Made by a program: the position numbers and the translations under genes. This document shows, in pieces, positions 7,769 through 62,765 of a stretch of DNA of 64,000 bases. This stretch comes from Collinsella aerofaciens. GTDB lineage: Bacteria; Actinomycetota; Coriobacteriia; Coriobacteriales; Coriobacteriaceae. The notes below the pieces were generated by a model. The model was not told where the DNA came from, did no database searches, and saw only the letters and a list, made by a program, of their open reading frames with translations. The stretch covers positions 124,001 to 188,000 of the forward strand of contig NZ_JADNHZ010000001.1 in assembly GCF_015554145.1 (NCBI RefSeq), in the 5' to 3' direction. Every line of letters begins with the position of its first letter. Within the stretch, counting starts at the first letter, position 1.

Positions 7769-7898
7769 GGCGGGGGCCGGGCTTAGTTTTCAGAACACTC
7801 CGCAGACCAGTGCGGCGCCTTGTCCGCAGCTCCGAAGGAGCAGGACAAGGCGCCGCACATGGTCGAGGACGTTCTGAAAACTAAGCCCGGCCCCCGCC
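7769..7898 (+). repeat. P1 nested palindrome, copy A
   Basis: Perfect 28-bp outer arms (7769-7796 / 7871-7898), then CTCCGCAG, a 3-bp helix ACC/GGT, a perfect 16-bp inner stem (7810-7825 / 7843-7858) and a small GAA-loop hairpin GCTCCGAAGGAGC. The 3' junction is AT-GGT-CGAGGACG. It ends 12 bp beyond the asd stop codon. The junction sequences are shared with copies B, C and D; the arms are not. Confidence 0.9.
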
Positions 7899-7910: not shown

Positions 7911-8936
7911 CTACTCGCAGAGCAGCTTAGCAATCTGGACGGCGTTGGTTGCCGCGCCTTTACGGATTTGGTCGCCGCAGCACCAGAAGGTGATGCCGCG
8001 CGCGGCCTCGGGGTTCGAGATGTCGCGACGCACGCGGCCGACCCAAATCAGATCCTGGTCGGACGTATCCATCGGCATGGGGAAACGGTCGTGCGCATCC
8101 TCGGCGCTCATGTCGTCAACCAGCTTGACGCCGGGAGCGGCAGCCAGCGCAGCACGGGCCTCCTCGACCGTAATATCGCACTCAAACTCGAGCGTAATGC
8201 TCTCGGAGTGCGAACGCAGCACGGGCACGCGCACGCAAGTGCAGTTCACGCGCAGCTCGGGCAGGTGCATGATCTTGCGGCCCTCGTTTTGCAGCTTCAT
8301 CTCCTCGGAGGTAAAGCCCTCCTCCTTGACGCCGCCAATCTGCGGAATCAGGTTGCTCGCCAGCTGGGCGGCAAATGCACGCGGCTCGGGAATCTCCTCG
8401 CCGCGGCCCAGAGCGACCAGCTGAGCCTCGAGCTCGGCCATACCGGGAGCGCCGGCACCCGAAGCCGCCTGATACGTCGAGACGATCATGCGCTTCACGC
8501 CGGCAAGCTGATGCAGCGGCCAGGTGGGAACCAGGCCGATGATGGTCGCACAGTTGGGATTGGCGATAAGGCCGTGGTGCCACTTGATATCGTCGGCATT
8601 AATCTCGGGCACGACCAGCGGCACTTCGGGATCCATGCGGAAGGCGTGACTGTTGTCGACCACGACGGCGCCGCGCTTGACGGCCTCGGGCAGCAGCTCC
8701 TTGGCGATATCGTCGCCGGCAGCGCCGAGCACGATGTCGCAGCCCTCAAAAGCCTCGGGGCAAGCTTCCTCAATCACGATCTGCTCGCCGCAGAACTCAA
8801 CGGTCTTGCCCGCAGAGCGCGCGCTCGCCAGCAGCTTGAGCTTACCGACCGGAAACTCCTGCTCGTTGAGGCACTCGAGCATCTGGGTGCCCACGGCTCC
8901 CGTCGCGCCCAAAATAGCAACCGTGTACTGTTTCAT
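7911..8936 (-). CDS. asd: aspartate-semialdehyde dehydrogenase
   Basis: A 341-residue cytoplasmic enzyme that reduces L-aspartyl-4-phosphate to aspartate-4-semialdehyde with NADPH, the branch point for lysine, threonine and methionine. The N-terminal Rossmann motif VAILGATGAVGTQMLECL and the active-site region NPNCATIIGLVPTWPLH (catalytic Cys) are present, with the later His in the RVPVLRSHSE region. The ATG at 8936 is preceded by GGGGGAAG, giving the usual length; longer frames lack a ribosome site. It lies downstream of lysC on the same strand but behind a terminator hairpin, so it probably has its own promoter. Confidence 0.97.
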   Translation of the reverse strand: MKQYTVAILGATGAVGTQMLECLNEQEFPVGKLKLLASARSAGKTVEFCGEQIVIEEACPEAFEGCDIVLGAAGDDIAKELLPEAVKRGAVVVDNSHAFRMDPEVPLVVPEINADDIKWHHGLIANPNCATIIGLVPTWPLHQLAGVKRMIVSTYQAASGAGAPGMAELEAQLVALGRGEEIPEPRAFAAQLASNLIPQIGGVKEEGFTSEEMKLQNEGRKIMHLPELRVNCTCVRVPVLRSHSESITLEFECDITVEEARAALAAAPGVKLVDDMSAEDAHDRFPMPMDTSDQDLIWVGRVRRDISNPEAARGITFWCCGDQIRKGAATNAVQIAKLLCE

Positions 8937-9010
8937 GCTTCCCCCTTTAAAGGTTTTGGCTTTTGCCCGCACGCCGAGCAGGCCGATTATTGTTGCCAGT
9001 GTATACAAGA

Positions 9011-9037
9011 ACGGGGCGGGCACGAAACCCGCCCCGT
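9011..9037 (-). terminator. hairpin between lysC and asd
   Basis: Perfect 10-bp arms ACGGGGCGGG / CCCGCCCCGT with a 7-nt loop, followed on the minus strand by TCTTGT. It would separate lysC from asd transcription. Confidence 0.6.
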
Positions 9038-12196: not shown

Positions 12197-12308
12197 GCGT
12201 GCCTGGCTGTTTAGTTCGTCGCGAGTTCCGCACGCAAAGGAAAGCACTTAATGTGCTTTCCGTCTTGCGCAGGACTGCCCGAGCAGCGAACTAAACAGCC
12301 AGGCACGC
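12197..12308 (+). repeat. long nested palindrome between thrC and thrB
   Basis: Outer arms of 22 bp are perfect (12197-12218 / 12287-12308, GCGTGCCTGGCTGTTTAG core). An inner hairpin GGAAAGCAC-TTAAT-GTGCTTTCC lies at 12239-12261. The outer arm ends one base before the thrB ribosome binding site AGGAGG (12310-12315). TTCCGCA and CCCGAG at the junctions resemble the P1 family but do not fully match it. Confidence 0.75.
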
Positions 12309-12321
12309 CAGGAGGACTCAC

Positions 12322-13203
12322 ATGATCAAGATCACCGTCCCAGCAACCAGCGCCAACTTAGGCATCGGCTACGACACCCTCGGCATGGCCGTCAGCCTTT
12401 ACTCGCACTTCACTTTCGAGCGCGCCGACAAGCTCACCATCACGGGCTGCCCCGAGGAGTTCCAGAACGAGAATAATCTGGTCTACGTTAGCTTTGTCGA
12501 TGCACTGTCTGCATGGGGCGAGCCGGCATTCCCCGTCACCATCGACATTCAAACCGATGTACCCGTCGCTCGCGGCCTGGGATCCAGCTCCACCTGCGTC
12601 GTCGCTGGCATCATGGCCGCCGCCGCACTGACGGGCCACACCGTCGACCGCGCCGAACTCGTCCGCATTGCCACCGAGGTCGAGGGCCATCCCGATAACG
12701 TCGCCCCTGCTATCCTGGGCGGCGCCGTCTGCTCCTTTACACCGACCGATTCGCTCCCCCAGTGCCTGCGCTACGAGGTGAGCGACAAGCTTCGTTTTAT
12801 TACTGTGATTCCGCCCTACGAGGTACATACGAGCGAGGCGCGCAAGGTCGTGCCGCAGGAAATTCCGCTCTCCACCGCCGTATGGCAAATGGGCCGCATC
12901 GCCGGCATGACGCGCGGCCTGGAGACCGGCGACCTTGACCTGATTGCCGCCGCCAACGACGACCGCATCCAAGAGCCGTATCGCCGTCGCCTGATTCCCG
13001 ACTACAACGCCGTGCGTGACACCTGCCTTAACGGCGGCGCTAAGACCATCTGGATCAGTGGCTCGGGCTCGACCCTCATGGCTGTAACCGACGACACCAT
13101 CGTGGCAAAGTTCCTGCAAGTCAAGCTGCGCGAGCAGTTCCCTAAGTGTGATACGCATATTCTGACGTGCGACACGGAGGGCGCTCAAATCGAGTACCTG
13201 TAG
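12322..13203 (+). CDS. thrB: homoserine kinase
   Basis: A 293-residue GHMP-family kinase that phosphorylates L-homoserine to the substrate of ThrC. The N-terminal PATSANLGIGYDTLGMAV, the ATP-binding PVARGLGSSSTCVVAG near residue 85, the EGHPDNVAPAILGG segment and the C-terminal glycine motif WISGSGSTLMAV are all in place. AGGAGG lies 6 nt before the ATG. It lies 200 bp after thrC behind a terminator and a long palindrome, and is followed 23 bp later by a P1 element. Confidence 0.97.
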   Translation: MIKITVPATSANLGIGYDTLGMAVSLYSHFTFERADKLTITGCPEEFQNENNLVYVSFVDALSAWGEPAFPVTIDIQTDVPVARGLGSSSTCVVAGIMAAAALTGHTVDRAELVRIATEVEGHPDNVAPAILGGAVCSFTPTDSLPQCLRYEVSDKLRFITVIPPYEVHTSEARKVVPQEIPLSTAVWQMGRIAGMTRGLETGDLDLIAAANDDRIQEPYRRRLIPDYNAVRDTCLNGGAKTIWISGSGSTLMAVTDDTIVAKFLQVKLREQFPKCDTHILTCDTEGAQIEYL

Positions 13204-13226: not shown

Positions 13227-13343
13227 GGTCCCCTTGGGGCTTCCCCTGAAAACGTCCTCGATCATGAATTGCCCCGTCGTACGCTTCGCGCGACGGGGCA
13301 ATTCGATCTGCGGATTGTTTTCAGGGGAAGCCCCAAGGGGACC
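13227..13343 (-). repeat. P1 nested palindrome, copy D
   Basis: Perfect 27-bp outer arms (13227-13253 / 13317-13343), perfect 14-bp inner stem (GAATTGCCCCGTCG at 13266-13279 and its complement at 13291-13304) and a CGCGAAGCG tip. Read on the minus strand the junctions are ATCCGCAG-ATC and AT-GAT-CGAGGACG, as in copies A to C. It begins 24 bp after the thrB stop. Confidence 0.9.
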
Positions 13344-21012: not shown

Positions 21013-21155
21013 AGGACCCCGCCGGGGCTGCTTGGGCTATCTCCCAAAATATTCCGCAGGACGCAAGAAGCCCTCGCCGCACGAAGTGCGCAGCGAGGGT
21101 TTCTTGCATGTCCGAGGACGTTTTGGGAGGTAACCCAAACAGCCCCGGCGATCCT
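21013..21155 (+). repeat. P1 nested palindrome, copy B
   Basis: Outer arms GCCGGGGCTG...CTCCCAAAA and their complement (21021-21049 / 21121-21149) with small internal loops; junction ATTCCGCAG (21051-21059), 3-bp helix GAC/GTC, 15-bp inner stem GCAAGAAGCCCTCGC (one G-T pair), tip CGCACGAAGTGCGCA, and 3' junction AT-GTC-CGAGGACG (21108-21120). It lies 18-24 bp beyond the stop of the glycyl-radical subunit gene. Confidence 0.9.
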
Positions 21156-21172: not shown

Positions 21173-21424
21173 TTAGAACTTGTCGTGGAAGGTACGCGAA
21201 ATGACCTCGTCCTGCTGCTCCTTGGTGAGCGTGTGGAAGTTCACGGCATAGCCGGAAACGCGGATGGTCAGCTGCGGGTACTTCTCGGGGTGAGCCTGAG
21301 CGTCGAGCAGCGTCTCACGGTTGAAGACGTTGATGTTCAGGTGGTGGCCACCCTTCTCGGCGTAAGCGTCGAGCATGTGGACCAGGTTATCGGCCTGAGT
21401 CTCGGAAACTTCAGAAACCTTCAT
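21173..21424 (-). CDS. grcA: glycyl-radical subunit of pyruvate formate-lyase (GrcA-like)
   Basis: An 83-residue protein equal to the C-terminal glycyl-radical domain of pyruvate formate-lyase. The radical glycine is in [11 protein letters not shown], preceded by [19 protein letters not shown]. The ATG at 21424 is preceded by GAAGGAGA. It lies directly downstream of a pfl gene that ends just before this domain, so the two together make one complete enzyme of about 766 residues. E. coli GrcA (YfiD) is a spare part for damaged enzyme; here the small protein appears to be the only source of the radical domain, at least in this window. Confidence 0.93.
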
Positions 21425-21447
21425 AATGTGTCTCCTTCGATCAATAG

Positions 21448-21469
21448 GCGCCGGCCGAAACCGGCGCAC
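21448..21469 (-). terminator. GC-rich hairpin between pfl and grcA
   Basis: GCGCCGG / CCGGCGC stem without a T-run, preceded by an AT-rich inverted repeat (ATTGTT / AACAAT, 21480-21505). It may act as a processing or partial termination site that sets the ratio of the two subunits. Confidence 0.45.
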
Positions 21470-28850: not shown

Positions 28851-28906
28851 TGCAGCCCTCGAACCGCCTCCCCTGGGACCTGATTGACGCCCTCCCTCAA
28901 GGCCCC

Positions 28907-29136
28907 GTGGACAAAAAATGGCAAATATGAGTACTGTCACCTTTTTAGTAACAGCCAAAACTGCCCCAAACGACCTCATTGCAGCCTAGATATGCCTTCA
29001 AATTGATCAAAATGCCCGGTAGCATGCTTCTGTGTGCCAACGTTAATGAACATATTTACTGTTGTGTCTATTATCTTGTAAGATCGATATGATACTACGC
29101 TAGCAACAGTACTCATATTTGCCATTTTTTGTCCAC
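28907..29136. mobile_element. MITE-like element with perfect 31-bp terminal inverted repeats
   Basis: A 230-bp AT-rich block bounded by arms 28907-28937 and 29106-29136, which are perfect complements over 31 bases (outer end GTGGACAAAAAATGGC). The interior has no gene; a small hairpin CTGTCAC...GTAACAG lies just inside the left arm. I see no clear target-site duplication. The size and inverted ends fit a non-autonomous insertion; a paired-arm RNA structure is the alternative. Confidence 0.7.
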
Positions 29137-29223
29137 AGGGTATGCCGCAGAAGATCCAACTTGCTCCAGCGTGCCGTACGTTGGCCCTCCCCTTCCGGCG
29201 AGCGCCGACATTTCCCCAGATAA

Positions 29224-43411: not shown

Positions 43412-43645
43412 CCTACCAAAAAGGGACAGGTTTATTTTGGCAGGTTTTATCTGGGCAAATGCCAAAACCGCCGCGAGGGAGCTACTTTCCCTCGCGGCGG
43501 TTTTCTAGCAGTAAAACCAAGTGAGTAGGCTTTTGGCGGGATGCCGAGCACGCCCCAAAACACCACCGCCCTGACCTGCGGTTTTATTGAGCGTTTGGCG
43601 CGGTGTGCTCGACAAGTCCAAAAAAGTCTACTCACTTGCATCTGA
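43409..43645 (+). repeat. composite repeat, right copy (P3, terminator, P2)
   Basis: Full version of the block also found at 35384-35610. P3 hairpin 43409-43445 (arms AACCTACCAAAA / TTTTGGCAGGTT, loop AGGGACAGGTTTA) overlapping the luxR TAA stop; a strong terminator with perfect 17-bp arms AAAACCGCCGCGAGGGA (43464-43504); then P2 with arms CAAGTGAGTAG / CTACTCACTTG (43518-43528 / 43628-43638) and CCTGCGGTTTTATTGAGC at the tip. Confidence 0.88.
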
Positions 43646-50126: not shown

Positions 50127-50257
50127 CCTGGGAGGGACGAGGGCTTAGTTCTCCAATCTTTCCGCAGGGGGCAAAAAGCCTCGCCGCACGAAGTGCGCAG
50201 CGAGGCTTTTTGCATGCCCGAGGACGATTGGGGAACTAAGCCCTCATCCCTCCCCGG
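50127..50257 (+). repeat. P1 nested palindrome, copy C
   Basis: 32-bp outer arms (50127-50158 / 50226-50257, three wobble-type differences), junction TTTCCGCAG, perfect 14-bp inner stem GCAAAAAGCCTCGC (50171-50184 / 50200-50213), tip CGCACGAAGTGCGCA and 3' junction AT-GCC-CGAGGACG. It ends 30 bp from the aldolase stop. Confidence 0.9.
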
Positions 50258-50287: not shown

Positions 50288-51145
50288 TTACTCTGCTTTG
50301 CCCACAGAGTTGAGGTTGGTCATACGGATCTTAACCAGTTCGGTGATCTCACGCATGCCCTCCTTGGCCGGCTTCTTGGGATCGAAGCAGGCGGGGTTCT
50401 CGGCCATGTAGGCCATGAAGCCCTTGGTGTAGGCCTGACGCAGCTCGGTGGCGTAGTTGACCTTGCAGATACCGTTCTTCACAGCCTCGGCAACCTGCTC
50501 ATCGGGCACACCAGAGGTGCCGTGCAGAACCAGCGGTACGTCGACGGCGTCGCGGATGGCCTTGACCACGGACTGCTCGATGTGAGGATCGCTCGTATAC
50601 ACGCCGTGGCTGGTGCCAACGCCAATGGCCAGCGAGGTGCATCCAGTGCGCTCGACGAACTCCTTGGCCTCGGCCGGATCGGTGTAGGGGCTCTCGCCCT
50701 CAACCGCGGGACCGTCGTCCTCCTTGCCGCCAACCTTACCGAGCTCAGCCTCGACGGGCACGCCCATGGCGCGGCCAGCATCGGCGACGGACTTGGTCAG
50801 AGCGATGTTGTCCTCGAAAGACTCGTGCGAACCGTCGATCATAACGGAGGTGTAGCCCGTGCGGAAAGCCTGCATGCAGCGGTCATAGCCATCGCCGTGA
50901 TCGAGGTGCAGGGCGACGGGCACGGAAGCGCGCTCGGCAGCGGCCTTGACCATGCCGTAGAAGTAATCCAGGCCAGCGGTCTTGATGGTGCCCGGGGTGG
51001 TCTGCATGATGACGGGGGACTTGGTCTCCTCGGCAGCAGCCAGAACGGCCATAACGAACTCGAGGTTCTCGACGTTGAACGCGCCAACGGCGTAGTGGCC
51101 GGCCTGGGCGTCCTTGAGCATCTTTTCGGTGGTAACAAGTGCCAT
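50288..51145 (-). CDS. class II fructose/tagatose-bisphosphate aldolase
   Basis: A 285-residue zinc aldolase cleaving a ketose-1,6-bisphosphate to glyceraldehyde-3-phosphate and dihydroxyacetone phosphate. Zinc ligands are in ALHLDHGDGY, VEAELGKVGG, GTSHGVY and LHGTSGVP, with NYATELRQAY late. Size and sequence fit the GatY/KbaY/short Fba group. The neighbourhood has lacA, lacB, lacC but no class I LacD, so this enzyme may serve as tagatose-1,6-bisphosphate aldolase as well as in glycolysis. GGAG precedes the ATG at 51145. Divergent from the DeoR regulator gene. Confidence 0.93.
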   Translation of the reverse strand: MALVTTEKMLKDAQAGHYAVGAFNVENLEFVMAVLAAAEETKSPVIMQTTPGTIKTAGLDYFYGMVKAAAERASVPVALHLDHGDGYDRCMQAFRTGYTSVMIDGSHESFEDNIALTKSVADAGRAMGVPVEAELGKVGGKEDDGPAVEGESPYTDPAEAKEFVERTGCTSLAIGVGTSHGVYTSDPHIEQSVVKAIRDAVDVPLVLHGTSGVPDEQVAEAVKNGICKVNYATELRQAYTKGFMAYMAENPACFDPKKPAKEGMREITELVKIRMTNLNSVGKAE

Positions 51146-51336
51146 GAGCGTTTGCTCCTCTCCATCGCCCGCATCTGGACATCGGGCGTACGTGTCCGCA
51201 AGGCGTTTTACCTTGCGTTTTGCTGCGTTCATTGTATGAAATTCAGCGGGTATGCATGTGCGAGATATTGTCATCGCGCGAGGTCCAACCTTCATTTTTG
51301 AAAAGCAAACGGAAGGGGTCGAACCCGAGCGTGCGT

Positions 51337-54882: not shown

Positions 54883-54968
54883 GTTATGAGTACGTTAACA
54901 TAGCCCGTAACGTGCGGTATCGTGAACACTTGGTTCATGCCGCTTCAAGTTGTTAACGTACTCATAAC
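54883..54968. promoter_or_regulatory. operator pair O2/O3 upstream of galK
   Basis: GTTATGAGTACGTTAACA (54883-54900) and TGTTAACGTACTCATAAC (54951-54968) are perfect 18-bp inverted copies, 68 bp between centres, lying 41 bp and more before the galK start. Looping by a tetrameric LacI-type repressor is plausible. An ACCGTTCACGG motif lies at 54825-54835. Confidence 0.7.
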
Positions 54969-57928: not shown

Positions 57929-57986
57929 TTAGTCATTGGGGACGCTCTTAAACGACTAGTCAAACAAGAACGTCCCCGACGACTAA
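57929..57986. repeat. P3 double hairpin, copy 2
   Basis: Two P3 units head to head (TTAGTCATT-GGGGACGCTCTTA and, on the other strand, TTAGTCGTC-GGGGACGTTCTTG), nearly identical to 30568-30627 but with the central AAACGACTAGTCAAAC inverted. Confidence 0.78.
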
Positions 57987-57992
57987 TGACTC

Positions 57993-58056
57993 GAGCGTGG
58001 AAAATCTCCCTCTTTGAGCTCGTATGGGCACCAAAAGCGGGAGATTATCCACGCTC
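57993..58056 (-). terminator. long hairpin after lacC
   Basis: 18-bp arms GAGCGTGGAAAATCTCCC (57993-58010) and complement (58039-58056), 17 of 18 paired, with a 28-nt loop; 22 bp beyond the lacC stop. No good T-run. Confidence 0.55.
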
Positions 58057-58078
58057 ATTCTATTAGGAGTCACAACCG

Positions 58079-62410: not shown

Positions 62411-62527
62411 TTGGATACCTCCTCATTCCGGCCTGTATTGCGGTGGAAAGTATACCCACCCATCGAAAAACTGAACGGCAGGAGGTGCAACAGGCTGCTG
62501 CATGATCCGCCCGCCATGAAATGGGCC

Positions 62528-62657
62528 CATCTACTACGTTTAACCGCCCATCCCCGACCATGCCACAAAGCGGAAAAACAAAACCGCAGGTAGAAGTCCT
62601 GCGGTTTTTCATGAAACGCGGGTGTGTTCGAGGGTATCGGGTTAAACGTAGTAGATG
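62528..62657. repeat. P2 palindrome, copy with 18-bp perfect outer arms
   Basis: CATCTACTACGTTTAACC (62528-62545) and its exact complement (62640-62657). The tip is AAAACCGCAGG-TAGAAGT-CCTGCGGTTTT (62580-62608), followed by GGGTGTGTTCGA, as in the 43.6-kb copy GCGGTGTGCTCGA. Confidence 0.8.
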
Positions 62658-62765
62658 AGCCAGTTTCGTGGCGAGCGCTGCCAACCGATCCTCCGGGGAC
62701 GGGAAAAGCGGGTCATTTGGGGCTGTCGGCCCCTATTTCGCCGCAACCTAGATAGGTGAGATACA

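Follow-up and report, generated by a model that had tools for sequence, protein, structure and literature searches.

P1, a family of nested palindromes with covarying helices and invariant junctions at gene 3′ ends in Collinsella

The 64,000-nt stretch of the Collinsella aerofaciens genome analyzed here (the window) contains four copies of a nested palindrome, P1, each lying shortly past the stop codon of a gene (Table 1). These genes encode aspartate-semialdehyde dehydrogenase (asd), a GHMP-family kinase for which the name thrB was chosen from family and neighborhood, a grcA-like glycine-radical protein, and class II fructose-bisphosphate (FBP) aldolase. The initial annotation, made from the sequence alone, had placed four copies after the stop codons of these genes with the consensus running antisense to each. 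Direct reading of the stretches, domain matches for the genes, and hits at all four positions with the covariance model R1 bore this out; R1 was built from 14 P1 copies of the source genome, and the E values of 9e-35 to 3e-31 apply to window copies that belong to its training set. The outer arms are long, as had been described, and an inverted-repeat search found them perfect in copy 1 (28 bp) and copy 2 (27 bp) and slightly imperfect in copies 3 and 4. When the core was searched for together with pairing arms on either side, five sites turned up in the 64-kb window, whereas three random sequences of equal length and dinucleotide composition gave none. The four copies are all real, but the annotation had missed a related fifth element (type 2) upstream of thrB.

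Table 1. Positions of P1 copies, the genes that they end, and related features. Window coordinates are used except for the Y1_Tnp/RAYT-like genes.
Feature	Position	Strand	Outer arms	Junctions	Remarks
P1 copy 1 (ACC class, recursive tip)	7769..7898	+	7769-7796 / 7871-7898	TCCGCAG 7799-7805, CGAGGACG 7864-7871	consensus antisense to asd, 12 nt past its stop codon
asd, aspartate-semialdehyde dehydrogenase	7911..9023	-			PF02774, PF01118; ended by copy 1
Type 2 relative (AGTTCCGCA...CAGGACTGCCCGAGCAG)	12197..12308	+	perfect, 22 bp		ends 14 nt before thrB start; R3 E 1.2e-8
thrB, GHMP kinase family	12322..13203	+			PF00288; ended by copy 2
P1 copy 2	13227..13343	-	13317-13343 / 13227-13253	minus strand, TCCGCAG 13308-13314, CGAGGACG 13253-13260	antisense to thrB, 19 nt past its stop codon
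P1 copy 3 (GAC class)	21013..21155	+	21020-21049 / 21121-21150	21053-21059, 21113-21120	antisense to grcA, 22 nt past its stop codon
grcA-like glycine-radical protein	21173..21469	-			PF01228; ended by copy 3
P1 copy 4	50127..50257	+	~50130-50157 / 50227-50254	50161-50167, 50219-50226	antisense to class II FBP aldolase, 33 nt past its stop codon
Fructose-bisphosphate aldolase class II	50288..51295	-			PF01116; ended by copy 4
Y1_Tnp/RAYT-like gene, source genome (L019)	G000:C8:52830-53156
Y1_Tnp/RAYT-like gene, source genome (L020)	G000:C44:118181-118504

P1 elements measure approximately 117-151 nt. Their outer stems span 25-38 bp, and the predicted hairpin energies, flanks included, are -97 to -143 kcal/mol. 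On the consensus strand, a foot (mostly GCAG, with GTAG or other variants, and often CGCAGG or CGTAGG) is followed by an outer arm of about 28 bp, A(T), TCC, GCA, G NNN, the inner stem, and the tip; the 3′ half continues from the inner stem through AT, NNN C, GA, GGA, and C into the returning outer arm. The pairing of TCC with GGA leaves an internal loop, GCA/GA, that is asymmetric and invariant. In the ACC class, represented by copy 1, the inner tip repeats the core as TCCGCAG...CAGGA, and the nesting is thus recursive. The inner cassettes are A-rich on their 5′ strand (A exceeded T in 14 of 18 dereplicated cassettes and T exceeded A in none; sign test, p = 6e-5), and in copy 4 the cassette read on the gene strand terminates in CTTTTTGC, resembling an intrinsic terminator. 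The tip, initially described as centered on GAA, usually carries GNA in Collinsella, often as a C(GNA)G triloop on the consensus strand, but is often AAA or another sequence in sister genera and follows no family rule. A reading of the GNA triloop as the sign of a single-stranded DNA hairpin was dropped on account of these tips.

Conserved junctions had been described from the four window copies, and TCCGCAG and CGAGGACG were found to be invariant in the 14 copies of the source genome used for R1. When 50 P1 copies were aligned, with the structure derived from the same sequences and the alignment fitted to it, 97.7% of cells paired compared with 67.7% in shuffles, and 750 cells had changed on both sides compared with 206 after shuffling. 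All 28 outer pairs covaried, as did the short helix next to the junctions, whose pairs had been noted to change together (alignment columns 46/109 and 47/108). The shuffles ignore the relatedness of the copies; sliding the pairing partners by one to three columns corrects for it and destroyed the signal. Covariation is strong by pair counts against shuffled and slid controls, which were used rather than R-scape. The claim that the arms are unrelated between copies did not hold, since 39 dereplicated outer arms have in common a core of about GGG-S-TT-A-C-YYY-CC-AARA (GGGSTTACYYYCC), with the outer ends as their least conserved part. Across genera, the helices of P1 vary freely and its internal loops are fixed.

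In the source genome (2.45 Mb), a two-junction pattern located 14 genuine copies, its remaining matches being chance or nested, and the R1 search gave 15 strong copies together with weaker relatives. Approximately 26 related species carry roughly 10-17 copies each. A specific P1 pattern occurred in 105 stretches among 84,980 species genomes, all of them Collinsella among the record titles listed. Within the genus, 36 of 45 genomes had matches at E 1e-12, with ~10-23 per genome in the C. aerofaciens group when both strands are counted, or roughly 10-17 elements, and 0-5 in other Collinsella. A minimal form, arm-AT-TCCGCAG-short stem-CGAGGACG-arm′, is present in sister genera of the same family and occurs sparsely beyond it, in further families of the order and of the class (Coriobacteriia); CGCAG and CGAGGAC were invariant in 22 aligned simple copies. 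A model of this simple form, R2, retained only 10 base pairs and was set aside. A phylum sample of 296 genomes gave matches in only 11, almost all of them members of the same family, a count that strict filters make a lower bound. Type 2 elements (AGTTCCGCA...CAGGACTG...GAGC) lie 13-20 nt before the thrB start in several Collinsella (L360, L362, L064, and L318) and are sense to thrB, an orientation opposite to that of type 1. A type 3 variant, GAGCGATTCCGCAG...CGAGGACCAGCGA, was seen in sister genera (L338, L341, and L346) as outward-facing pairs ~150-330 nt apart.

Genes around 91 copies in 21 locus groups were predicted with a home-made codon model. In 18 of the 21 groups, the consensus has a gene 3′ end 5-46 nt to its right and runs antisense to that gene; on the far side there may be either the start or the end of a gene, at very variable distance. 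Sister genera follow the same trend, with 22 elements antisense, 4 sense, and 13 neither, the last count including other element types. About 15 genes are ended by P1, among them thrB, FBP aldolase, phosphoenolpyruvate carboxylase (PEPC), a MIP channel, PFOR, PFK, GroEL, a branched-chain aminotransferase, asd, grcA, pta, and a few others, eight of which were identified by Pfam and the others by inspecting the translation. They are mostly housekeeping or central metabolism genes and, judging from their identity alone, presumably highly expressed. Two convergent genes each have their own outward-facing copy (L352), and two copies are reversed, the asd copy of G008 (L066) and L330. The initial annotation had read P1 as a selected fold tied to gene 3′ ends and not as a decaying repeat. 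Covariation, junctions, and position support that view, for an RNA fold and a DNA fold alike: further copies exist in related genomes, the junctions hold in other genera, and the 3′-end bias is present with a fixed orientation.

L093, L095, and locus groups 2 and 12 have no ORF ahead of P1. The upstream DNA of such loci has TGAGATYGRAAATCAACC in common between two loci of one genome, which is possibly a candidate small RNA; an Rfam search at the ORF-less loci returned no match except a nearby tRNA. At the aldolase 3′ end of distant Collinsella (L288, L289, and L291-L293), hairpins followed by a T-tract, typical of terminators, occupy the same distance from the stop codon as P1 does in its carriers. 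Exclusive occurrence of P1 and canonical terminators is suggestive at aldolase; at asd and thrB, the terminator detector also fires within P1. Canonical terminators were also found ≤250 nt after P1 at some loci.

The positions of P1 are conserved across species while arms and inner cassettes change. The same place at the thrB site is occupied by four complex alleles, unrelated to one another, along with several simple alleles, and the aldolase site has three unrelated alleles. Exchange of inner cassettes is sometimes exact at the junctions: L078 combines the MIP-locus arms of L061 with a cassette one base from the PFOR-locus cassette of L002, and L130 compared with L015 shows a similar swap in which the arms are kept and the cassette between the junctions is replaced. 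In L312 and L299, the 3′ half of a different allele comes after one element, and L304, near a contig end, has lost its interior, which could be an assembly fault. The thrB and aldolase alleles occur in combinations mixed across species, which suggests that alleles may be exchanged by recombination between species. At the aldolase 3′ end of G012 (L277), P1 breaks off after the inner hairpin and runs into unrelated DNA, perhaps through insertion or misassembly. P1 elements break genome assemblies, as seen at L145 (G007), L147 (G004), L144 (G006), and L272 (G003): contigs end inside P1, and the asd copy of one long-contig genome holds a poly-G/C filler.

The suggestion that P1 belongs to no described family agrees with the searches made. 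Rfam had no match in the window at gathering thresholds, and weaker matches were unrelated hairpin families, mostly microRNA precursors. The literature searched on Collinsella palindromes and terminators, which takes in the main text of PMC8040213, names nothing similar in this clade. According to that text, a structured-RNA set from the human microbiome comprises 3161 candidates, 250 of them palindromic and most of these read as terminators; the sole Collinsella candidate named there lies upstream of the L7/L12 gene, and P1 could be among the palindromic candidates. Like intrinsic terminators, including the actinobacterial I-shaped ones that lack a U-tract, P1 is a stable predicted hairpin shortly past the stop codon; it takes their place at aldolase, and its inner cassettes have A/U polarity. 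It differs from them in being nested and ~130 nt long, with an invariant asymmetric loop, conserved junctions, and no U-tract after the outer stem. Terminators without a U-tract are reported to be common, and a U-tract directly after the hairpin is not demanded by all terminator descriptions (PMC8355165).

REPs, tagged GTAG or CGTC, are 20-40 bp long with stems of 5-13 bp and a terminal unpaired tag (PMC3733652). P1 resembles REPs and BIMEs as a dispersed intergenic palindrome, often at gene ends and sometimes nested, but is ~130 nt long with variable arms and a conserved middle, and has no RAYT link of the kind that GTAG-type REPs have. It falls outside the REP ranges of size and stem length and lacks an end tag, the CGTC sitting in the middle of the gene strand. 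ERIC/IRU and other MITE-like elements are imperfect palindromes of ~130 bp with many intergenic copies. These elements keep their sequence between copies, whereas the helices of P1 vary and covary around fixed loops; the outer ends of the P1 arms are the least conserved part, and shared terminal inverted repeats are accordingly absent. No precise empty P1 site was found. P1 clearly exemplifies a dispersed element that conserves its structure but not its sequence, and its conserved positions with replaced arms and cassettes are a natural record of the turnover of near-perfect palindromes in bacterial genomes.

We consider that P1 may be a clade-specific, protein-read element of transcription termination or of the mRNA 3′ end, a reading to which we give roughly even chances. 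The region ~20 nt past the stop codon would be transcribed with the upstream gene and fold into a long hairpin, with an outer stem of ~28 bp and the invariant asymmetric internal loop, which on the gene strand would read UCC-UC-G / C-UGC-GGA. In the C. aerofaciens group, the inner cassette itself looks like a bidirectional intrinsic terminator, with a 5′ strand rich in A, a GC stem, and a 3′ strand rich in U. The most likely role of the hairpin is to end transcription, to protect the 3′ end of the mRNA, or both, and its loop is most likely read by a putative protein. Orientation, spacing, gene class, occupation of the canonical-terminator site of relatives, and the A/T polarity of the cassettes argue for termination or a 3′-end role; an invariant loop amid freely changing helices favors recognition by a protein. 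If only base pairing matters in the helices, arms and cassettes could diverge freely and be exchanged between copies. Several observations count against termination: minimal forms lack a terminator-like inner cassette, two locus groups have no ORF, type 2 elements precede gene starts, two copies are reversed, and canonical terminators occur near P1. Nor does a U-tract follow the outer stem; U-rich strands are confined to the interior of the element, where many inner cassettes have one. The idea that P1 had inserted into the loop of a pre-existing terminator was rejected for want of a U-tract after the outer arm. A fuller version, a 3′-end system specific to Coriobacteriia in which one protein would read the invariant loop in hairpins of arbitrary sequence and so end or process housekeeping transcripts, while cassette exchange at the loop motif would rebuild the nests, preserving the pairing of the helices but wiping out similarity among copies, is put forward tentatively and seems to us rather doubtful.

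The main rival to the termination reading makes P1 a REP-like, nonautonomous mobile hairpin that would insert at or replace terminators in a fixed orientation and might nest within itself; the DNA hairpin would be recognized through its conserved loop, and the turnover of arms and cassettes would reflect mobilization. P1 is indeed palindromic, dispersed, and multicopy, its cassettes are common to different loci and swapped at the junctions, composite and deleted elements occur, the foot CGCAGG or CGTAGG is near the GTAG tag of REPs, and published REPs include some nested in palindromes (PMC3733652). The source genome also has two Y1_Tnp genes, one with a C-terminal helix-turn-helix-like segment. 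However, neither is flanked by P1, positions are largely conserved and arms locus-specific with little sign of recent transposition, and the size and variable arms are unlike those of REPs. A REP driven by a RAYT was discarded because the number and type of Y1_Tnp genes do not track P1 across 45 Collinsella genomes. Mobility seems to us possible, though on the improbable side.

Two further readings appear considerably less plausible. The selected molecule could be the consensus-strand RNA, antisense to the gene end, with P1 stopping or shaping antisense transcription that enters from downstream. On that strand, the C(GNA)G triloop and the GCA/GA loop look more structured than their complement, and type 2 elements are sense-oriented before the thrB start, but the variation of the tip in sister genera and the inconstant far side of P1 speak against it, and we regard it as unlikely. 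Alternatively, P1 could act at gene ends as a DNA structure, a cruciform or strand hairpin that might serve, for instance, as a binding site or a topological boundary, and quasipalindrome correction during replication would keep the arms perfect. This would suit the outer stem, which has diverged widely yet shows almost no intermediates, and the breaking of assemblies inside P1. Wobble mismatches are strand-symmetric as well, but GU-versus-AC wobble is equally symmetric in canonical terminators and does not discriminate between RNA and DNA selection; the fixed orientation and stop-codon spacing would also go unexplained, and we give a DNA structure little credence. If, on the preferred reading, P1 ends transcripts, the terminators of Coriobacteriia would include a type marked by a specific recognition element, which would open a new approach to gene ends in a common gut genus.

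Other palindromic features were observed in the window. Long intergenic hairpins without the P1 junction lie at 43518-43638, 54883-54968, 57978-58071, and 62508-62677, and some of them are possibly decayed P1 relatives or members of other families. At 28903-29140, inverted repeats of 35 nt, 97% complementary and 168 nt apart, look MITE-type.
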